Source: Cavenderia fasciculata (taxonomy: Eukaryota > Evosea > Eumycetozoa > Acytosteliales > Cavenderiaceae). From it: DNA of 64,000 bases. The stretch spans positions 193,233-257,232 of the forward strand of contig NW_004457734.1 in NCBI RefSeq assembly GCF_000203815.1, read 5' to 3'. Each line of letters begins with the position of its first letter. Position 1 is the first letter of the stretch. Below, piece by piece: positions 28,611-42,657 of the stretch. Made by a program: the position numbers and the translations under genes. The notes under the pieces are model-generated. The model did no database searches. It was not told where the DNA came from and saw only the letters and a program-made list of their open reading frames with translations.

Positions 28611-31215
28611 TTACTTCTTGATTTTCGAGGTATAAGTGGTTGAAGTTTGTTCACCTTCATCCTCTTCTGTAACCATGAAACTTTTGTCTTTTTCATCATC
28701 CAAGCAAGATGGGTTTCTCTTTTGGGGTTGTGGTGCTGTATTTATATTTGGTCGGTTTAGTTGAAGGAGTTGAGAAAAAATAGGACCAAAGAAACTTTTT
28801 GCTCAGATCCAACAATTATTGTGCTGTATGGAATAATATCGATTGAGTCTTGATGGAATCTTTTTGTTGTGCATACAAATAAAATGGGGATTGTGTCGCT
28901 GTGGATGAATGGCCATTCCTTAATAGCTTGTTTCGACTTGGTGATCGAATCTGTCACCTTATCCCATTCACTTTTGACAAGGGCGTTTGATACCTCACCA
29001 CTAGTATCGTTCGAGGAAAATTTTGATTGACCACAAATCAAAATGTATTCATCTTTAATCATTCCCACCGATTTAATGTAGTTAAACCAATCAAATTGAG
29101 CACCAGCATTAATATAGGTGGAAAAACAATTTCCTTTACAAATATCATTAAACTGGGCCATTGACTCTTTTGTTTGAGTGGTTGGGTATCTATAAGAGAG
29201 AGTCGATACGGAGGGACGGGAATCTGGTGGGGAGGGTTTTGAAATAGTGATTTTCTTTGATTTCAAATCTTGAGATGAAAATATGGAATCTGAACCAAAT
29301 AGTTGTTCAAGTGTAACTGTGGTTATTCCTAAATACAAGAACATTGCAATTCTTGCTTGCATAACAAAAGCACAATATCTTTCCCAGTGCTGCCAAAAAG
29401 CTTTGGTCTTGATTTCCTGCAAAAAATCTTGTAGGAAGAGGAAGCTGGGGTGGACAATGGTGAGGGCACTCCAGCTAATAAAAATGAGAGGAAATGACAA
29501 GGTTGTGGTGACTTCATTCAAATACACTTTTACGATAAATCCACTATGCTCCAATTCTTCAAAAGTGAGGTCCGTTCCATTAGGTTTTCTCTGGGTCCAA
29601 TTGTCGATAGAGAGTGTGGTGATGGAATAGGCCACGAGTGTCATAACCAACTCTCTATTTAAATTTGAAATAGGATATATTTGTGATACGAGATAATATT
29701 TGTTCAATCTTCAGGTTTGATATTGTTGTTGGTGTCAAATCCGAGTTGGATATTTCTTCAATTAAACTATCACAAGAAATATTCAATTGGTCTAGCCCAA
29801 CCTCCCATCAACATCTGTGCATAGATAATAAATGGATCCTGAAAGCTGATGATTTGTGGTTTGGATGACATTATTTTTGACACATCATCAGCTGAAAAGA
29901 GTGGTAATTTGAGTGAAATGCATCAGTGGGAAGATTCTTGGGAGATTGTTTCTTGAAGAGATGACAGTAATGTCCCACCAAATAGAGCAACCACAAAAAT
30001 GCCATCTGTTGATCTTGTTTGGGCTGCTCCTACTGCCATTACAATATCTCTGAGATGTTTTCTTCTGACCTTGATGTCTTTTGATGTCACAGAAGAATCT
30101 TGGAGTAACTTTTGAAATTCGTCTATGGCCAATAATATTGTCAGAGATTCCTTTTCTTCCACTTCTTTGATGAGAGCCAATACAAGAAGTAAAGGCAATT
30201 CTTTATCCCAAGTATCAAACCATTGTTGGATAAAAAGTACCAAAGGGTCTCTGATGCGGAAGTAGTTGTGAAGGATTCTTAATGAGAATCCTGATACAAT
30301 GTCTCTAAACTCTAATTTACTAAGGGGTTCCCCATTTCCATAAGTCAAATATAAGTAAACACTGTCTGCTGATGCCTCAGGCACACTTTTACTAATGATA
30401 CGAGGAAACTCTAAAAGAAATCGAGTTTTTCCTGTGCCTGGGGCTCCAGCCACTACCATAATTGGGTGTACTTTTTGATCATCCTCTTGATTTTTGTGAC
30501 TCTTCCATCTATCGCGAACTGTAGCCTTCAATAATTTAGAAGATTGTTTTCTGCCAACAAAAGGAAAATCCTTTCCAAAACCAGAAATAATTTTATCTTT
30601 TTCAAAAGCAACCTAAACAAAAAAAAAAAAAAAAAAAAAGTCAGCTTTTGTTGTTGAATTCTTTATAGTGGTTGAATTACCTTTGGTTGTATTTTATATT
30701 GTTTTATCCATTCCTTTAATGATAGAAGGTTCAAAGCTAAAAGATCTTGAAAAAAGAATTATTATTAATAAAAAATAAAAATAAATCAAAAAAAGGAGAG
30801 CGTTTTAACCACAAAAGAGAAAGAATTGGTTGAACAATGAAGAAATAAAAATGATTTGATAGATGGAGTAATAAGACTTACTTTGAGGTAATTCTACATG
30901 AGATGATTCTAATTTTAAAATTAGATCGAGTGTCGCACCATCATCAAAATTAGTCACAACTGACTTATCTTCCAAGAGAGATCCTTCGAAAGAGAGACCA
31001 AACGAATCTTGGGATCGACCTTTTAGATCACCAAACTTATTGAACTTGAGAAGGAAACTTTTTACATTGTCAACATATATTTTTGTATTTTCATTAAATT
31101 CAAACTGACTATTAGAGTCTTTGTATCTAATCCAAATTGTTTTGCTACCTATCAAATAGAAAAAGAAAATCAATAATCCGTTTTCATGATGAATGTTGTT
31201 TATATATGTACTCAT
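28611..31215 (-). pseudogene. Crinkler (CRN)-type protein gene, apparently broken
   Basis: The 5' half is a clean spliced gene: ATG at 31215-31213 with a 4-nt first exon (31215-31212), then 31148-30882, 30745-30681 and 30612 onward, all in phase. It encodes a ubiquitin-like CRN header (KTIWIRYKDS, then DGATLDLILKL), the linker FVGRK and a P-loop NTPase with Walker A VVAGAPGTGKTRFLLE and Walker B LLAIDEFQKLL. A TGA at 29925-29923 stops the frame inside the NTPase domain, although recognisable NTPase sequence (SADDVSKIM, MLMGGWARP) continues after it in the same frame. Further stops or frame changes follow near 29800-29710. The C-terminal part (29707-28757) resembles the restriction-endonuclease-like nuclease of CRN proteins, with FDWF and a GQSKFS (QxK) strand. 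A change of frame in an A run near 28797-28801 precedes an open tail ending at 28611. CRN proteins are effectors or selfish-element-derived proteins known from oomycetes, chytrids and some amoebae. It could instead make a truncated NTPase. Confidence 0.75.
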
Positions 31216-31544
31216 TTTAATTATATATAAAACAAGAAATGACTCTCTTTAATGATAAAGTAATAAATAATGTATAAGTTCTACTAGATGAATATTTAAA
31301 AAAAGTTGAGACAACTTGGTAATTTGAGCTTTTATTTTAAAATGAGGAAAAAAGTGTGTCAAATTTTTTGATTTTTTTTTGAAAGAATTTTTTGGAAAGA
31401 AATGTTTTTTTGAATTAATTATAAGGTCTTGGTATAATTTCTATATGATTTAACTTACAAGATATTTGCGCAATTAGAGTAAATAACTGCGACTTCCCAT
31501 ATTTATACAGGGTAACCCTATTAAAGAAAACTAGGATACATACC
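31216..31544. other. Fanzor 3' flank and CRN upstream region
   Basis: These 329 bp separate the Fanzor-like stop codon from the CRN start on the same strand. The half next to the CRN gene is oligo-A/T. The half next to Fanzor holds GGGTA/TACCC motifs, including the near-palindrome AGGGTAACCCT at 31509-31519, and the end of the hairpin at 31534-31591. No ORF is supported. In TnpB-like elements this position carries the guide-RNA scaffold and the element end. Confidence 0.4.
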
Positions 31545-31591
31545 CTACCTGCCAAGGTGTAAGACATCAGCGGGTAAGGAACGGTATATCC
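31534..31591 (-). ncRNA. Hairpin over the Fanzor stop codon, candidate guide-RNA scaffold
   Basis: Read on the minus strand, GGATA-TAC, then CCTTACC, a loop of about 24 nt, GGTAGG, and GTA-TG-TATCC fold into a stem of about 14 bp with small bulges. The Fanzor stop codon TAG (31547-31545) lies in the 3' arm. TnpB and Fanzor omega-RNAs are known to overlap or follow the 3' end of the nuclease ORF, so position and strand fit. The boundaries of any transcript and of the mobile element are not visible. Chance folding cannot be excluded. Confidence 0.35.
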
Positions 31592-31942
31592 AAGGGCGAT
31601 AACCTGCTTTGGTCTGGTGTAATATTCCCAAAAGGAGAATATTTTTTGCAGCACTCGTATCTCTGTTGAAGAACCTGTTGCAGACTGGACAAAAAAGCCA
31701 TTTCCATTGAGTTTGAAATGGCATATCCAATCCCGGGTACTTTGACTTCCAGAGAGCTTTTATTTGAGTGTAACAAAGTGACTTACCAAACTCATAGTCG
31801 TGGGTCGGAGCAGAGTTGTTTGTAAACTTGTTCCCATCCTCTTGACTATGGCCAATATTTTCTTGAATATTATTACTATTAGTTTTTTTTTGCTTTTCAA
31901 AATTAAACTTTATGATCAAGTTTATAATTTTGTCCTTGGTTA

Positions 31943-32037
<95 letters not shown>

Positions 32038-35000
32038 TTTTTTTTCTTTTTAATTATATTAGTAATTTTTTTTTTTTTTCTCTTTTTACCTGTTTTTTTT
32101 TGATTTTCCTTTGACTCTTCATCATCTTCTTCTTCTTCTTCATCATCTTCATCATCTTCATCTTCTTCATTTTCTTTATCATTGTAATCGATTTTGTTCT
32201 CATTACAAAAGACTATCAACTCTTTTTTAGTCTTTTGGTTTAGAGAGTAAAGTGACTCCAATGGCAAAGTATGAGAAGGTGAACCCTTTTCGAGGGTTAT
32301 GAATGTTTCCAGAGAACTATTGATATCTTTTGCCAAATCACCATTGGCGCACTGACAATCGTACTTTTTGCAAGCACATTTGCCACATTTTTCATCTTTT
32401 TTAAAGTTGCATTCCCAATGTACACCATTATCTGAAATAGGGGGGGTCGCAACAACAAGGGTCTTTTCAAGAGATTCAGGTAACTGTTTGTTTTCAATCT
32501 TTTGATGTTTAATTTTGTCTTTAAACATTTCGTTGTTGGTAAGATGAATGCTAGCGGCACATGCATTATGAATCTTGGAAAAAAAATATTATTAATGAAT
32601 GGTTTCATTTGTGAGTGATGAGAATAAACACATACTTTGGAGGTATTAAATTCATTTACCATAAGAGCCTTGTATCCCATATTCTTCCAAAGACGGTAAA
32701 AAGACTTTGGACCAAGACCAGTTGGTCCACCACCCCGAGAGGAACGGTAAAAATCAGAACCACCAATACCTATAGAGGATTAGAAAAAAAAAGATTAATA
32801 AAATAAATATATATAAATATGATAAATGACATACAAATAACAGTTTTGTTTTTGGGTATTGTTGTGGGTGGCACAAATCGCTTTGCATAAGCATAGCGGG
32901 CACGCTGATTGTCAATGTGTTTATTCTTGTCCATGGTCTGGAACGTATAGGAGGTGACCACCTGGACATAGAGACGACATTGATGTTGGCATGTAACCCT
33001 TTCATACTCGATTCGCTTCATTACCGATTCTAGACTGAACAAAGTTTCTAAAAGATAAAAAAAATAAAAAGTTTAGTTTAACAATAATACAATGATTTTA
33101 AAAAGTATTACACATACCAAAGGTGTTGTATTCTGGCAACCCTCTTTCAAATGATTTCAAGGGCATTTTGTACTTTTCTATCATCGCACAAAGACGGCTA
33201 GTCTTCATCAGGTTGTAGAGCGTTGCTACAGAAACCACTCTGGCGCGGTTCAGAGAGTCGACGATCGTGTTTTTTGACCTTCCAGGATCAATGCCAACAA
33301 AAAGATATTTGGAACTGATGGCTTGTCGAATTGATCTCCATTGATACCGACGTTTTTTACACATACCAGGATGGTAAAAATTTCTCTTGGCCCTTCTATT
33401 TTCATATAATGGTACTCCATCATCATCTTGAATATTTTTTATAAAGGATGAGTCAGGTACAGATGGGGCCGTAGGTGTTGATCCAGATGGGGCAGGTACA
33501 GATGAGTCAGGTACAGATGGGGCTGGTACAGATGAGTCAGGTACAGATGGGGCTGGTACAGATGGAGCCGTAGGTAGTTTTTCGGAGTATGATTTTAACA
33601 CTTTTACCAATATTTTTAATTTGGTGGTGAACCAATCGTCCTGTATAGAAATTTGATTGTCTCTAGCCCAAATTAAGAGTTCCAACTTGCTTTTGTTTGG
33701 GTCAAAAGATTTATCAGTTGATACTTCACACTCGCCGAGGGTTGCTTTCCATAAAGCCAATTTTATCGAATACGGATCTTCTTCTGCTTGAACAGTGATG
33801 TCGTAGGCCTTTGCTTGTTCCAATAGTGCTGCTTGATCAAATTTGGTAAACATGTTAAGTGATTTACCATTAACGAGACCCAATTTTTTTGTATTGTTCA
33901 GACCAGTCGAGGTTGATGTGAGAGGTATGCCAACAGATGATGAAGTTGTTGTGAGACCAGATGACGACGAGGAAGATGATGGCTCCGACGAGGAAGATAC
34001 AGCAGAGGTGGTTGATGCAAATGTTTTAATTTTATCAAACATTGACACTTTTGGTTTGAGCTCGTAAACTGAATGAGCAATCGTAATGTATGCAGCGATT
34101 AAATGAGTTGCCAACATTACTGATGGGTGATGAGCCATTGCGATGAGTCTTTTCCCTTTGACTTTAAATGTATCACATATGTTGTCATAGGAGTTTTGAC
34201 TATAATCAACAATTTCATAGTCTTTCTTATTCACCTCGTAAGCAGCTTTGGCAGCTTTACATGCAACATGACCACAAATGATGATGACTTTAGAAGTTGT
34301 TGATTCAAATTGCTTCTTTAGTTCTTCTGCCATTTCTTTTTCCTTTGGTTCGTCTTCAAAGCCACCTGCAGAAGAGTCGCGAACGCTGGTAAATGCGTCA
34401 CGAATACGAAACGACATCGAGGGATCGGATGTTGCATTGATTACATTGGCCAAGTTTCGCATGGTTGGGGCAATTCCTGAACGGTCAGAGTTGAGAGCAA
34501 TCGAAGTGGTGTTGAGTGGCTCGTGAAGAAATATTTCGACATGTGGTGAATCTGTCGAGATATATTCACGCAATATGCGATCTACTTGTGAGATGGCTGG
34601 CTTCACAGGTGGACAAGAGTCAGAGGAATGGACGAGTTTTTCCGATGCAGCTTTTTTGAGCGATGGGTCTACATTGTACAAGTTGGAAAAGTTACCACAC
34701 GTTTCTTTCCTTTTTTCATGTTCGGAAAGAATGGGTATCTGAATGTTACAAAGAGGCGTTGGGCATTGAATTGGCAAACATTCGCTATTGAGAGTGTGGG
34801 ACACAAGACAGTGGGCACAAGTGATTTTTCTAATCTCTTTGGTGACACTTGGTTTCAATCCAACTTGTTGTGCAATATAACAGGGAAAATGGGGGTGATT
34901 AGGTGACATCTTAGCCTTGTCTGTTTCCACTACAGTGCATTTCAGAGGATAAGAAATAATATCAGTGGAGGGAGTGGAATCCTCTGACATGGGTACATGT

Positions 35001-37404
35001 TCATTTGGTTCTTCGAGATTCTTTTGTTTTTTCCAAGGAATACATGGGGTTTCGAGATCAACCGATGGGCTGAAACCACGTTTCGACGTATTTTGAATAT
35101 CGATTAGCATTTTGTCAACAGCAACTATATAAAGAAAAATTGAATATTAGTAAACCAGAGAATAAATATATACTTTAATATTGTTAAATTACCTTTTTCT
35201 CGAAATGAAACAGGGCCGGGGGTGTTTTTCGTTATCATCATCACCCTCTGGTTGATTCTAATTGAAACGTTTTGAAGGTAAATGTAACCGATCTTATCCT
35301 TTACATAATCGTTAAAGTTGATATGGACAGTGGGGGGATTCTTCTTATCAAAAACTGGATCGGGTTTTGGCAGAGGAGAGACCAGGTAATCCACCAACAA
35401 GGATTTGTCGACATGACCAGATGTGTAGTATTGAAAAAGTCCAGACTGTGGCAAAGGTTTTGGCCTCCATATCGGTTGGTTTGTCAGTTTACTGATTGAA
35501 ATGTTTTTTGCTTCTAGCTGAACTTTCAATTCTTTTTTTAGTAATGGCAACGATGTTGAGTACCAACCGTCTTTGATTTCAATGTTGTTATCACGCAACC
35601 ATGTTAAAATCTCCATCTTGTTGGGTGACCGATTATAATCAAAATCTACAATATTCAATTCTGGACGATTTTTAAGCATATCTTTCCATAATACCAATTT
35701 AACCAATGCTATTTTATCTTCTTCTTCTTCCTTTTTTGGTGTATCGGTATCAAAGTTGATCCCTCGAGCTTTTAATTGTTGACAAAGGTCATCCCAAACC
35801 AATCCTTTGAAGTTGTGAAATGTATCAGATTTTTCACCCAATATTCTCACATTCGATTTTGACGACCCTCTTGACGATACAACAGGCGAGGGGGATGGTG
35901 GTGATACAACAGGCGATGGGGATGGTGGTGATAGATCAGGCGAGGGAGATTTTGATAAATCAATGAGATGATCGATTTCCTTGTCAAAAAATGAATATCT
36001 GCTTAATGGATAGCCACCACTCAACGGATGGCCAAGTACATTTTCCAGGTTGGGAAAGATGGTCTGGAGATATTTGTTAATCTTGTCCTTGGAAGTGAGC
36101 GTAATGGTTCTATCAATGCCAGAGTTTTTAAGGATGTTTACAAACAATTGTAACGAAAAAGGAATCAGAGTACTATTAAATCTAAAAGTTATATATATTA
36201 GTTTACAATACAAAAAAATATATATCTATTTTTTTTTTTAAAAAGTTTATAACATACCCATATTGAGGAACCAGGCATTTGATTCTTATTTCTTTGGTTC
36301 TTATCCTCTCGAAATCGGAGGTTTGAAGATTCTCCAATTTCTCCTTGTGATTGGATGCATTGGATTCTTTGGGGAATTCGTATCCAATAGTTTTCCAAAA
36401 ATCAATCAAAGATTCGAATTGTTTTGTTGTCAATTTTGACAAATCCACCTTTTCTTTGTCGAGACTATAGAGAATAAAAAAAAATGAATTAATTAGTGTG
36501 TGAAGTATAATGAATATATAGATAAAAAATTAATTACCAAATGACATTTTCGAGATTGAATAATTTCAATCGATTCAATTGATCTTTATCCAAGCTGGAC
36601 CAGCTGCTCTTTGGGGAGACAGAGCTATCGATTAATTCCTTCAAACGTTTGGACGTTTCAGATAACATCCTCTCATTGACTTGGGGTAAACCATCATTTG
36701 TTGGAATGATACCCGCATCCAAGCGCAATGCTGTCTCAGCCAATTCTTTAATGGTAATAATTTTACCATCAATGTTGATTTTGCTAAAATCGGCCATTTC
36801 ATTTTCAAGGTCATAATTCTTTTTTGACTTCTTTCCACGAGCCTGCTTCTTTTCCCTCTCTTGTTCCTTTTCTCTTTCTTCGAGGTTCTTTTTTCCTTTT
36901 GCAATACATCTCAAGTTGTGGTCTAATAGAATAAATAAAAGAAGAACAGAGGGTTAAAAAAAACTTTCTTTTTTAATAATAATTGATAGAGATCCTATCT
37001 TAGATATTTACCTTTGAGTTGTTGAGAGTCACAAATTAGTTTGATAGCCTCGATGGCCTCACCGATATCATTACCACCACCATTCAACTTGTCCAGTATT
37101 CCTTGCAAGAGTTCACATACTTCATATGAAAGGAGTAGATAGATTCTACGATCGTGTATATAATCTTTGAGACTGGTTAAATGGCGTTTGAACGTTTCCA
37201 CTGTTTCCGCCAAAAATTGAGTTTCAATGGAATTTGAAAACTCTGTCAAATATGAATGGCATGTTCCGATTGGAGCCAAATCTGAATCTTTGAGGGCGTT
37301 GCGGATCTTTTGATTTTCCGTCAATCTCTGGACATTTAGTTTAGAGAATGTTTTAGAAACCATTTCTAATATAGCTTTAGCCTTTTCCTCGTCTTTACTT
37401 GATA

Positions 37405-37451
<47 letters not shown>

Positions 37452-38029
37452 TAAAACAAGATATCTATGAGTATATCATTGTATAGTCACAACGTACATA
37501 TTTCTTTGGTAAAGAACTACTACTTCGTTCTTCCACTTGGGTTACTTTACATAACACGGCGTCAATTAATGCTTTTCCAATTGACAGTGGTCCACTCAAA
37601 CATTTATCTATGTCTTTCATCATTTCATCTTTTTCTATCTTGTTCAATCCAGTGGTATCATAGTACTTGGTGAGTGCATTTTTGAAGTCCTGCTTGTCTC
37701 CACTAAATACTAAAAATGGTAAATATAGAAAAAGAGAGAAAAAAATAAATTAATTAATATCCCTTTCAACCGTTGGGGTGATGTTGATACACATGCATAC
37801 CATTGGAGTTGCAAATGATTGTAGCGTGTGATAGTTGTGCCGTGATGCGACAGGTGGAGTAATACTGGCGGGTGTATTGGCCTAGATGTTTCATAAATGT
37901 ACTCTGGGTTTTATTCCATCTTTTTCCCATGACCGAATCGAGTGGGTTTTGTGTCGTCCGTGTTAGTGTATACGTTGGATATGGAAGAGGACCCTTTTCG
38001 AATGGATTGTCTTGCACTTTGGTGGCCAT
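31545..38029 (-). CDS. Fanzor-like (eukaryotic TnpB) RNA-guided nuclease, very long form
   Basis: Ten exons (38029-37801, 37709-37498, 37405-37012, 36922-36538, 36464-36258, 36181-35193, 35124-33118, 33047-32835, 32769-32636, 32573-31545) join in phase into about 1,932 aa. The C-terminal 530 residues carry the TnpB/Fanzor core. RuvC-I is FVGIDPGRSKN (residue ~1419), followed by GIGGSDF..GGGP and VNEFNTSK (~1584-1590), whose Glu is the likely rearranged RuvC-II acid of Fanzors. CPVCNRFFNRDTSAAKNI (~1885-1902) gives half of a zinc ribbon plus the RuvC-III Asp. An acidic/basic stretch and about 30 Asn separate the two zinc halves. The N-terminal ~1,400 aa contain charged helices (with an RGKKSKK-type nuclear signal), SAP-like modules (~600-690 and ~1235-1315), a Cys-rich patch (~900-945) and a glycosylase-like segment (~1000-1145). 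Fanzors are programmable DNA endonucleases carried by eukaryotic mobile elements. The start at 38029 is the first ATG of the open frame. All three catalytic acids appear present. Confidence 0.82.
31946..32036. repeat. (TTA)n microsatellite coding poly-Asn
   Basis: This is an almost perfect trinucleotide array of about 90 bp. On the minus strand it reads as AAT codons and gives about 30 consecutive Asn in the Fanzor-like protein, between the two parts of its zinc ribbon. Such tracts are common in dictyostelid coding DNA. Confidence 0.9.
33447..33572. repeat. 30-bp minisatellite coding a Pro/Ser-rich linker
   Basis: Two perfect 30-bp copies (33501-33530 and 33531-33560, unit GATGAGTCAGGTACAGATGG plus ten bases) are flanked by degenerate copies. 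On the minus strand they encode the repeat VPAPSVPDSS, a flexible linker just before the RuvC core of the Fanzor-like protein. It has the character of replication-slippage expansion. Confidence 0.85.
35876..35929. repeat. 27-bp tandem duplication in Fanzor exon 6
   Basis: Two 27-bp units that differ at one base are followed by a partial third copy to about 35950. They encode repeated SPPSPSPVV segments of a Pro/Ser linker upstream of the first SAP-like module. Confidence 0.85.
37408..37446. repeat. Oligo-A tract of about 39 A in a Fanzor intron
   Basis: On the minus strand this is a T run immediately upstream of the acceptor of exon 3, where it extends the pyrimidine tract. Length is likely to vary between isolates or to be an assembly estimate. 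Confidence 0.85.
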
Positions 38030-38418
38030 GGTGGTAACGATCTTGAGAGGGGACCCCAGTGGTGGCGCTACAAGAGACTGCTCTGAAGATAACTTGAGTA
38101 AATAGTAAAATGAGATACTGTAATGTAATTAAACTTTGATAAAATAAAATAGATAAAGGGATGGAGATAAATATTGAGAGAAGTTAAAAAATAATAATGA
38201 AATGAAGAGCCCAAATTTGTGTGATTTAAATAGAGATCGCATTGAAGATCAAAAAAAAAAAATTAATTTAAAAAATATCTTTCTTGGAAACAATAAACCT
38301 TCACCGTAACGATCGATGCTTATTTATAGATTTATTTATATATTGATATTTATGAATGATCAATAAATTTTATCAATATTATAGATATATTTTTATCTTT
38401 ATTTTAAGCATATAAATC
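38030..38418. promoter_or_regulatory. Divergent upstream region of Fanzor and a small gene
   Basis: This is an A/T-rich region between the Fanzor start (-) and the small plus-strand gene. The Fanzor frame stays open upstream to a TAA near 38130 but has no earlier ATG. I looked for inverted or direct terminal repeats shared with 31216-31544 and found none that I would trust. Confidence 0.4.
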
Positions 38419-38945
38419 ATGAGTACAGCAACCCAAACTATCACTGCATCTCCAGCAGCAGTAGCAACAACAACAACAATCACAACACCACCAACAGGAG
38501 CATTCTTTCAACCATTCATTGGCAATCGCGTTAAACCAACATACCCATTAAGACAAGTCCAACGCATTAGAAAACAAATATCATCTACGTTAAATAGACA
38601 TACAGGTGGCGACCAAGAACTACAATCAGAGGTTCTAAGAAGTTTCAGCATATCTAAACATGGAAGAGGTATCAAGATGTTGCTCGATCCCAAAGGAGAA
38701 AAGATCTACAACGATGGTACAGTTTTTATGGCTACAAGAGATTATAGTTGTCTCAACATCATTAGAAAGATGCACAAGGAAGCAAAAGATGGGAAAAAGA
38801 ATCATTTTACAAAAACACAGTAAGTTGCATTTATCACATCAAATACCTCTTCTTTCAACCTCCCATATAAATTAGTATGGATGTTCAAACCACACTACTG
38901 AGTGTCTCATCAAGTAATACAGGATTGTGTATATATTATATTTAA
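38419..38945 (+). CDS. Small protein of unknown function
   Basis: The ATG at 38419 opens 133 codons; without splicing the frame stops at 38821-38823 (134 aa). The last codons contain a perfect donor, CA|GTAAGT at 38820. Joining it to the acceptor AAATTAG at 38875 replaces the last residue and adds about 22 residues, ending at TAA 38943-38945. The protein has a Thr/Ala/Pro-rich leader, a basic helix (LRQVQRIRKQISSTLNRH) and a compact domain (KMLLDPKGEKIYNDGTVFMA, then DYSCLNIIRKMHKEA). Codon use is gene-like and less A-rich than the flanks, which supports a real gene. I do not recognise the family. Expression and the splice are unproven. Confidence 0.5.
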
Positions 38946-40221
38946 AATTACGAGTTCATTTATACTAATTCCTTTCTTTAAAAGAATATTATCATCGGTA
39001 TCACCTTTTCATACTGCTTCACAACTAAGAGATTTTGGTTTCAAAATGATTTGAATGTGTATTGAATATATTTTTGTTATTTAATACCTATTTCAATTAT
39101 CGAGCCAATGCCAAATTTGAAATGATAGGTATGTCAATTACTACAAGTTAAATATTTTATAGTTAATACGATATACTCACCAATTCATTCTTTAAAGATA
39201 GTTTGTTGTTGTAATATTAGTTCAACTATTATCAAAAGGTTACAGTGAACCTTTTCAAACCTATTTATATATGGAACTCCACATTGATTCGAGTCAATTA
39301 TTATTCGTTGATTTCAATGATCTAGTGGTCCAATATATATACATATTTTTTTATAATAGACTGTATATACAGGTATGGATTATTATTAATATTAATTTTA
39401 TTTTTGTTTCTTCCAACTTTACACATTTTTAACTTTTTTTTTGCCATTATAGATTATAGATATGATATCGATCAAGAGTAATGGTAGCTCTATTGATTCT
39501 ACTCATATTTCCTCTTTTTATTTATCCCTTACAGCTTTATAGTTCAATATTTAATCAAACAATACATCCATATATGGTACCTATCCATAAATGATAAAGT
39601 TTAAGTATCATGTAGACTTCAACATAGTAGTAGTATATACTACAACCACCACTCAATTACTAATACATATTTTTAACATAGGTCATCCTTACTATTTTTC
39701 TATAGAACCGATTGATCTTCTTCTTAATCAACCGCTGATCTATTAAAGTTATGTATATATTCATAACATAAATTAATTTCAAAACTAACAATTCCAATCT
39801 ATCAGATATCTGTTTAATGAGACTAGTCAACAAATCGGTTCATACTATAGCTGATAGTCTTGTATTATAGCAACAAAGGTGGTTGTTTGGTCATCAACTC
39901 TACCCACCTGAATTAGAATACAAAGTTAAGTAAATTCATCACAATACAACTATCAAACCCTCAACTAATCATATTCATGCCATATTATACTTTAAATATA
40001 GATAATGAAAAGATCTATCGATTGGTAAAAGAATAATTAAAAATAAAGAAGACCATAGAGAGAAATAAGTTTTACAAATAAATAGATTCTGAGGCGGTAC
40101 TCCCAACCAAAAATTTTCAAAACCCCCAAAGAAAATAAATATTCATTTTATTAATTTTTTTTTTTAATTTGTTTTTAATATAGAATTCTTTTTTTGGTGT
40201 GTTGTATGTAACTTTTATTCA
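38946..40221. other. Intergenic region, no gene seen
   Basis: This 1.3-kb A/T-rich region holds only short structures: an 8-bp stem AAAAGGTT/AACCTTTT (39235-39256), a 14-bp palindrome GTAGTATATACTAC near 39630, and T runs before the next ATG. It presumably contains the promoter of the ankyrin-like gene at 40222. Confidence 0.45.
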
Positions 40222-42657
40222 ATGAACAACAACAATAACGAATCAACAATCATAATATTTAGAGTGATTAAATCTAAAGTATTATTAAATCTTATATTAT
40301 CATTCATACCAATAATCAATCAACTATCATTGCTATACTCTCAAAAATATCAGTTTCTATTATATAAATCTATATCTTTATTAAAGTACAGTGATCATGT
40401 TGGAGCTTGTTACAAGACTAAAAGTAGTCATCATTACGATGACGATCAAAAATACATAGAACTAAAAAGATTGCAACAACAAAGATCATTTGTTTTGTTT
40501 AGAGATAAACTATTGAATGATCGACGGTTTGTAGTCTATTTCAGAGCAATGCCAGTAATACTGAGGAATTGTAAAGATGTCACATTGTTACAAAGACTGC
40601 ATCAACAGTATCCTCACTATTTTAATTTGCCACTCACTAAACCACCACCTGAAAAGTCAAGTAGTGGTAGTAGAAGTAATAGATCAGTTCCAAGAGTGGG
40701 AACAGCGTCAACTACAACATTGGGTGATTGTATTGGATCAAAGAGTTGGGTCATTGACAATGTGGCTGCAAGTGGTAGTTTGGCATGTTTGGTCTATACA
40801 ATTGAAAGTATTGGTATTGAACCTACTACCATGACACTCGAGATGGCTTGCGAGTATGGTCAATTATCAATACTCGGCTTTATTCAAGAAAACTATCCAT
40901 CGTTGCCAATTGGTAGAGCATTTGAATTGGCCACCTACAATGCACATCCCTCCATTGTACAATTTCTATTAGAGAATAAAACAGACGAGTCATTCAGCTC
41001 TGTTTCTCTTGTCAATGCTGCAAGAAATCAAAACAAAGAGAATAATCTAAAGATTTGTACACTGCTCTTTGAATATTCTAAAACGAGACACGGTGGTAGT
41101 GAAGAAGGAGATAGATTTGGTTTGGTTGATAATTCAGTCATGTCTGGGTCATTGGAGATTGTTAAGTTGTTTCATAGTCATTATGGTCATTCAAAGAATG
41201 CACTTGACATGGCTGCCGAACTAGGGTATTTGGATATAGTTATGTATCTCGATCAAGTTGGAGCACCTGCATCTACGAGTGCAATGGATTATAGTGCAAA
41301 GAATGGACACTTGGATGTAGTAAAATACCTAAAAGAACATAGAAAGGAAGGGTGTTCACCAGACATATTGAAAAAGACATTGGTTGGTGGATCTATTGAT
41401 GTTTTTAAATACCTTTATTTTAACGTACTTGGTGGTGAAGGAGGTAGTGTTGGGACGGTTGATTTAGCATCGTATATTAGTAATGTCACAAGTGGAAACA
41501 TTCCACTCTTACAATTTATAAGAGAGTGTTGTATGTTGACACAACCACCACCCACCAACTTGTTGTCACAAGTAATCACTCGTGGACAAGGCGATCGTTT
41601 TGCCATGGCAAAATACCTCATCGAGAGTGAGATGGTGGTTCAGCCAGATCATCCAGATTATGTCTACGAACAATCATTAATCATGCAAGGATTGGTTAGA
41701 CGTGGTCCACTATCACTATTTCTCTATCTAGTAGTAGATACGTTTAAAATCGACTTGACCAACAAACCATTGTCAGAGGATATTTGGGAGCAACTAAAAA
41801 GAGAGTATGATGGTCAAGTACTGGTTTATATGCTCCAACAAAACAAGCATCATTTAGAGGTGGTGCATTACAACGATATTCTTATCAACGGTAATCCCCC
41901 CTACTTGCAAGTACTAGAGTATATTTGGGAGGTGTGTCCAGATGCATACTCATACTCGCCGTATACAAGTCGACTTGCCAACCGAGTGTGCACACTCGAT
42001 CAAAAACAACAACGTATCGATATTTTCAAATTCCTCCATCGCAATCAACTTGTCAGTCAGTTCACCCTACCAAAACTAATTTCCCAAACGCTTCAACATG
42101 ATGGTGATTTTGTCTGTGCAATTCTATTACACTCTTTTATCGAAGAGGAGGAGGAGGAGGAGGATAAGAGTAGTAGAATAGTGGTAGAAAAGTTATTTGA
42201 AGATGCTGCCAATAAGGGGTCACTTGAAATGATACGATTTCTGGTCAACCGGTACCCACAACATATAATCTTTGAATATAAAAGACACGATGCGTTGTGT
42301 CTAGCTGCGAAGCATGGACACTTTGAAATTGTCGATTATTTGATCAACAACCAAATTCACCCTCCTCTTGACATACTGTCTCGGTCACTATTACAAGATT
42401 CAAATATCATTGATTGTGCAGCACAATCCAACAAATTAGAGATACTTGCCCATGTTGTTGGAAAATTTCCGAGTATCCTACCAACACACCGTTCATTAAT
42501 TGGGACCAGTCTTGATGTTCCACAATACCTAGCCAATCACTATAACCTAGATGACCTAATCCTATCATGTAAAGGTGAATCTAATTATTTTATTTTATTA
42601 AGAAATGCAAAAAATGATTTAATTAATCAAAATCAAAATAATCAAAATAACAATCAA

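Follow-up and report, generated by a model that had tools for sequence, protein, structure and literature searches.

Sola2-type elements carrying Fanzor1 genes, DFa-1, DFa-2 and DFa-3, were published for Dictyostelium fasciculatum in 2013, with terminal inverted repeats of 12-13 bp and, in DFa-1 and DFa-3, without most of the transposase (PMC3627910; this and the other publications are cited from the parts available). Fz1 proteins are mostly 600-700 aa long (PMC11423790) and Fanzor1s reach about 800 aa (PMC10711439). Their fingerprint combines a DPG with a glutamate that lies six residues ahead of the zinc motif, and the published search pattern places 120-160 residues between the DPG and this glutamate and 12-18 residues inside the zinc site (PMC10711439). 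Among the characterised proteins, SpuFz1, GtFz1 and PpFz1 combine a RuvC nuclease with a zinc domain (PMC10432273, PMC11423790), and PpFz1 also has an inserted domain of ~100 aa that binds cyclophilin (PMC11423790). The Fanzor1 element of SfAV, non-autonomous and present in two copies with inverted repeats, encodes only the Fanzor protein, of ~600 residues, and its guide RNA was seen by sequencing (PMC10711439).

Here we analysed a window of 64,000 nucleotides from Cavenderia (Dictyostelium) fasciculata and consider it probable that it contains a non-autonomous Sola2-type DNA transposon made up mostly of a single spliced gene, whose product is a giant and divergent nuclease of the Fanzor lineage that acts by the mechanism proposed below. 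We refer to this element and its near-identical copy on C18 as family A, and to the related families in the same genome as B to E. Because it has been published for C. fasciculata (PMC3627910), a Sola2-borne Fanzor in this species is not new. The element shares with DFa-1, DFa-2 and DFa-3 the species, a 4-bp AT-rich target duplication, short inverted repeats and the shared transposase end, and A and B have, like two of the three DFa families, lost most of the transposase; unlike them, as far as the available description goes, it stands out by protein size and by inserted modules unmentioned there (PMC3627910). A or B is probably one of DFa-1 to DFa-3, as inferred from the description and not from sequence comparison. 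Like the SfAV element, that of family A is non-autonomous, has inverted repeats, occurs in two copies and codes only for a Fanzor protein, and its protein shares with the SfAV lineage the DPG and the alternative glutamate; unlike there, the guide RNA is here only predicted (PMC10711439). Like SpuFz1, GtFz1 and PpFz1, the A protein is a predicted nuclease with RuvC and zinc domains, and it has inserted domains as PpFz1 has one, but it measures 1,932 aa, contains several inserts and has HxxC replacing the first CxxC (PMC10432273, PMC11423790). Nothing in the literature consulted describes this giant architecture of several modules: titles and abstracts on Fanzor, TnpB, Sola2 and Dictyostelium yielded no description of such a Fanzor.

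The element and its parts lie in the window as follows.

31326..40144, minus strand (Fanzor gene as sense): whole element, 8,819 bp (8.8 kb), Sola2-type by its ends and transposase stub
31322..31325: ATTT, target-site duplication on the Fanzor-3' side
40145..40148: ATTT, target-site duplication on the opposite side
31326..31339: 14-bp terminal inverted repeat at the Fanzor-3' end
40131..40144: 14-bp terminal inverted repeat at the opposite end
38419..38823, plus strand: truncated transposase gene, exon 1, 134 codons
38932..39048, plus strand: stub of the next transposase exon, 39 residues, matching residues 4-42 of the 358-residue family C query

By reading, the terminal inverted repeats are imperfect: the two ends of the window element agree at 10 of 14 positions, those of family B at 11 of 14. 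Six B copies had both ends among the sequences fetched (the left ends of the other four were not among them), and five of these are flanked by AAAT on both sides, C1 being one base off. The C18 copy of A matches the window over 31319-39468 at 99.36% and over 39473-40002 at 99.07%; its left inverted repeat was looked for and not found. About 750 bp of that copy are missing from the window element at 39468-39473, and near 40000 the window copy also lacks ~700 bp that other elements have. Two substitutions, one synonymous and the other nonsynonymous, and one codon of a poly-Asn run are all that separates the coding sequences of the two A copies, so that both frames are intact. There may be a third A-like locus, a shorter one, to judge from a match to exon 1 at C18:1055079 (97%) and from the gene model DFA_10242. 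Seven other places in the genome carry the initial 151 bp of the left end (window 39900-40148) with 100% identity, and several further places carry them with 92-99%, which suggests recent activity of the transposon set.

On the Fanzor-3' side the element adjoins an AAA-type ATPase frame (window 29923-30531, minus strand; PF13401 just above the cut-off), which, together with a frame at 30805-31215, we take to be reminiscent of Crinkler/RHS-type proteins. Its other end lies ~75 bp ahead of the start of an 849-codon ankyrin-repeat frame (PF12796), with window 40145-40222 in between, and this closeness may have an effect on the expression of the ankyrin-repeat gene.

The first transposase exon matched 24 stretches in the genome, near other Fanzor loci and, among others, beside a longer transposase in L033, and the 358-residue family C transposase query found a full-length match at three places. 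At nine B-type places a remnant of ~57-60 residues persists, with at least one internal stop in eight. The transposase segment of the family C relative had no Pfam match; the label 'Sola2' rests on the element ends and on the published description (PMC3627910). Because the element retains only a transposase stub, it is probably mobilised in trans.

The Fanzor gene reads leftwards from window position 38029 to 31545 on the minus strand.

31545..38029, minus strand: Fanzor-lineage gene, 10 exons, 1,932 aa, from splicing and from family B with the same structure
38029-37801, 37709-37498, 37405-37012, 36922-36538, 36464-36258, minus strand: exons 1-5
36181-35193, 35124-33118, 33047-32835, 32769-32636, 32573-31545, minus strand: exons 6-10

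The 10 exons, spliced at GT-AG introns and all in phase, give 1,932 codons and a stop. A preliminary description of this DNA had already proposed ten in-phase exons, and both the splicing and the ten-exon family B copy on C12 bear this out. Exon 7 is a single open stretch of 669 codons, for which the chance expectation at the local base composition is ~2e-21 (~6e-11 for a 330-codon open stretch), and it contains the RuvC-I motif as well as an alpha/beta domain. With the RuvC aspartate at residue 1418, the earlier figure of about 1,400 residues ahead of the RuvC core was correct. Calling these residues an 'N-terminal extension', as was done there, is too simple, because family C also has a front part, of ~1,010 residues, and because A and B add an insert of 289 and 264 residues, respectively, in the zinc site. 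We read the novelty as modules inserted into a dictyostelid Fanzor that was long already; three hhalign comparisons of the A/B front parts with the family C front gave no significant similarity. In the public annotation of C. fasciculata two models match, DFA_06309 and DFA_10242, both of them fragments (361 and 106 aa), showing that intron-rich Fanzor genes escape annotation.

The nuclease core occupies the C-terminal part of the protein.

33287..33289, minus strand: RuvC-I aspartate D1418 (DPG)
32651..32653, minus strand: alternative-position glutamate E1585, 6 residues ahead of the zinc motif
32559..32570, minus strand: first zinc half-site HNAC, aa 1592-1595
31692..32558, minus strand: zinc-site insert, 289 residues (264 in B), with low-complexity runs
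31659..31691, minus strand: second zinc half-site CPVC, aa 1885-1888, and D1895

The motifs GIDPG, VNEFNTSK and CPVC-x6-D are all present, and the D-E-D triad of RuvC is complete (D1418, E1585 and D1895), with matching residues in B and C; as read, the fingerprint is D1418-P-G, E1585-FNTSKI-HNAC and CPVC-x6-D1895. Both A and B have DPG and E-x6-HNAC, and sister family C has DPN. The DPG-to-glutamate spacing, 164 residues in A and 166 in B, falls outside the published 120-160, and 289 residues separate the zinc half-sites in A, against the published 12-18. The zinc site itself has the form HxxC...CxxC and not a compact C4, with histidine as first ligand in A, B and C and, by reading, also in D and E. 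The C4 zinc finger of canonical Fanzor1 was thus not found in A, B or C, and since HxxC and CxxC replace it we call the protein divergent Fanzor-lineage, not canonical Fanzor1.

Taken alone, the core scored below the Pfam cut-off of PF07282, at E 0.026 for A and 0.018 for B, so that the profile check proposed earlier fails as a direct match and becomes significant through the sister families. The family C core passes this TnpB zinc-domain profile with 35.8 bits (cut-off 26.3), and hhalign matched the A/B core to the C/E core with E 3.1e-20 and a probability of 99.3% over 408 columns at 22% identity, in an alignment, built on C and E cores joined by eye, that starts at the RuvC aspartate and reaches into the C-terminal part. 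Together with the triad, this upholds the original call of a TnpB/Fanzor core with three acidic residues: judged by its sequence, the core is TnpB/Fanzor-related. A protein search with the core profile gave only two matches, both fragmentary C. fasciculata models. No match came near a cut-off in NCBIfam or appeared among PDB sequences at E up to 1 with the core profile, and a scan of viral contigs with the C/E core returned 121 pattern matches and no relatives. The full-length A protein had no match at E 0.001 among 8,000 candidates scored, a list that we suspect was filled by low-complexity words.

A search of the genome with PF07282 found 23 places, assigned by score and frame length to A (2), B (12), C-type (7), D (1) and E (1); the loci read were A, ten B places and one each of C (plus C2:106501), D and E. 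Family C (L029/L033, C14:2921531-2926642, minus strand) has 10 exons and 1,436 aa by our own splicing, and introns 7, 8 and 9 of A and C lie at corresponding places of the core in equal phases. The family C Fanzor adjoins a long transposase frame (L033:4926-5999), and this element is a candidate for the published DFa-2. The further Fanzor-like loci, E (L031, C14:3231500-3233600) and D (L032, C18:1308200-1310200), have the HxxC half-site by reading, and locus D resembles an internally deleted A/B relative.

Searched against the 31.0-Mb genome (21 contigs), the exon-7 frame found one other family A copy, that on C18, at 100%, and 10 family B places at 53-55% identity over the best stretch. Over the whole protein A and B are 50% identical. 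The B copy on C12 has 10 exons in the same order as A, encoding 2,019 codons, and eight of the nine intron phases are equal, the exception being intron 1, whose donor is uncertain.

Exons 1-5, lengths in A/B: 229/146, 212/205, 394/394, 385/385, 207/192
Exons 6-9, lengths in A/B: 989/1088, 2007/2340, 213/213, 134/134

Nine B copies were examined, the tenth, C1, being excluded because a search for the start string failed there. Two spliced fully (C12, 2,019 aa; C21a, 2,015 aa), three (C17, C14a and C14b) have a frameshift in exon 3 through a common 4-bp insertion, with an additional 14-bp insertion in C14a, and four gave no splicing result, as the acceptor string used for the splicing did not match them. 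Across 1,811 aligned codons A and B diverge with pN 0.326 and pS 0.686, and pN is below pS in every exon. In each of exons 1-7 pN is 0.28-0.47 against a pS of 0.63-0.85 (near saturation), which shows that purifying selection has acted on the long front part as a protein and agrees with the coding selection previously claimed for it. In exons 8-10 (window 31545-33047) the synonymous divergence falls to 0.46-0.57, which could reflect gene conversion between the families or constraint at the nucleotide level. The core is the part best conserved between A and B, with identities of 60% (aa 1383-1713) and 62% (aa 1810-1932), compared with 42% (aa 27-548) and 46% (aa 589-1174) further forward. Among the nine B copies the differences comprise 21 synonymous, 48 nonsynonymous and 2 stop-making changes; the synonymous share, 21 of 71, is close to the random expectation of 21.5%, as is expected of young copies.

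Ahead of the core we recognise the following modules.

35509..35844, minus strand: internal repeat copy 1, aa 589-700, exon 6, SAP/HeH-like by eye only
34031..34819, minus strand: Cys-rich stretch and alpha/beta domain, aa 908-1170, exon 7
33581..33859, minus strand: internal repeat copy 2, aa 1228-1320, exon 7

The repeat came to light through a match between the exon 7 query and exon 6 (36%, E 1.4e-8), and it extends across families, aa 590-695 of A matching aa 1276-1376 of B (E 2.8e-5). The stretch holding the Cys-rich part and the alpha/beta domain is 53-55% identical to the 10 B places. A protein search with the exon-7 region gave no match at E up to 1 among 1,794 candidates. Structure models of the Cys-rich/alpha/beta region reached pLDDT 54 and 60, and fold comparison with these low-confidence models returned mainly MogA/MoaB/gephyrin-type rows. 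The uracil-DNA glycosylase superfamily profile PF03167 found four places in the genome, none of them in the Fanzor gene; pairwise and hhalign comparisons of aa 998-1170 with uracil-DNA glycosylases were not significant, and neither were two control pairs of true glycosylases. Carbonic anhydrase, which Pfam offered for exon 7 below its cut-off (E 0.0046 and 0.0011), was set aside as absent from the B domain. By eye, we also had the impression of an A/B-C alignment around aa 470-545 and of a WED-like strand pair near aa 775-795.

By analogy with PpFz1, whose insert binds cyclophilin (PMC11423790), the most likely role of the inserted modules is to provide further contacts with DNA or protein, and their binding partners may come from the host or from the element. 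We regard as doubtful a bolder reading in which one polypeptide joins the RuvC core, with its large zinc-site insert, to SAP-like repeats and to an alpha/beta domain that is enzyme-like and perhaps similar to uracil glycosylases or to MogA. This would be a new architecture, kept by selection in two families, that would couple guide-RNA targeting to a second DNA-handling activity.

For the element as a whole we propose that a transposase from sister elements moves it in trans, and that the protein would bind a guide RNA read from the element's own 3' end through the inverted repeat and the target duplication into the flank. The nuclease would then cut matching DNA, for instance the uninterrupted homologous site, and repair would copy the element back or spread it. 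RNA-guided cutting favouring retention or spread of the element has been proposed for TnpB and considered for Fanzor (PMC10432273).

31326..31544, minus strand: non-coding stretch 3' of the gene, reaching the element end, where the guide RNA is predicted to lie

The guide RNA should derive from this stretch with the inverted repeat and target duplication, a placement at the element's 3' end that we base on analogy with Fanzor1 reRNAs (PMC10711439). Directly after the stop A and B have a short block in common. Folding of three stretches for a guide RNA gave nothing significant (z-scores -0.51, 1.51 and -1.35).

That folding result, together with the altered zinc site and spacings and the very large inserts, would fit a protein that has lost its RNA-guided nuclease function and serves as a Fanzor-derived DNA-binding protein or transposition helper. 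We think this unlikely, given that A, B and C all have the three acidic residues and that it is the core that is best conserved between A and B. It is more improbable still that the front exons form a separate gene beside a smaller Fanzor. The exon joins were read from genomic sequence and the front part has no significant similarity in family C, as two genes might predict, but exon 7 holds the alpha/beta domain and the RuvC-I motif in one open stretch, and family B keeps the same exons with eight of nine phases equal.

Domestication had been raised from the outset as an option, namely that the slime mould has taken over the Fanzor for a cellular function, and the long conserved frame, the nine introns and the selection seen between A and B could be read that way. 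We nevertheless judge it the least probable of the alternatives, and very improbable indeed: the gene sits between transposon inverted repeats with a target duplication, beside a transposase stub, and has a near-identical copy on C18, and in family B both the near-random changes and the frameshift common to three of nine copies fit an element and not a gene that the host retains. The Fanzor gene is an intact mobile-element passenger.

This passenger on a Sola2-type transposon is an intact gene more than twice the usual Fanzor1 size, and selection has acted on it between two families of a transposon set that looks young. Such a gene would mean that very large insertions, including one within the zinc site, can be accommodated by the Fanzor scaffold, and the inserted modules offer testable roles in targeting, in partner binding and in coupling to the transposase.
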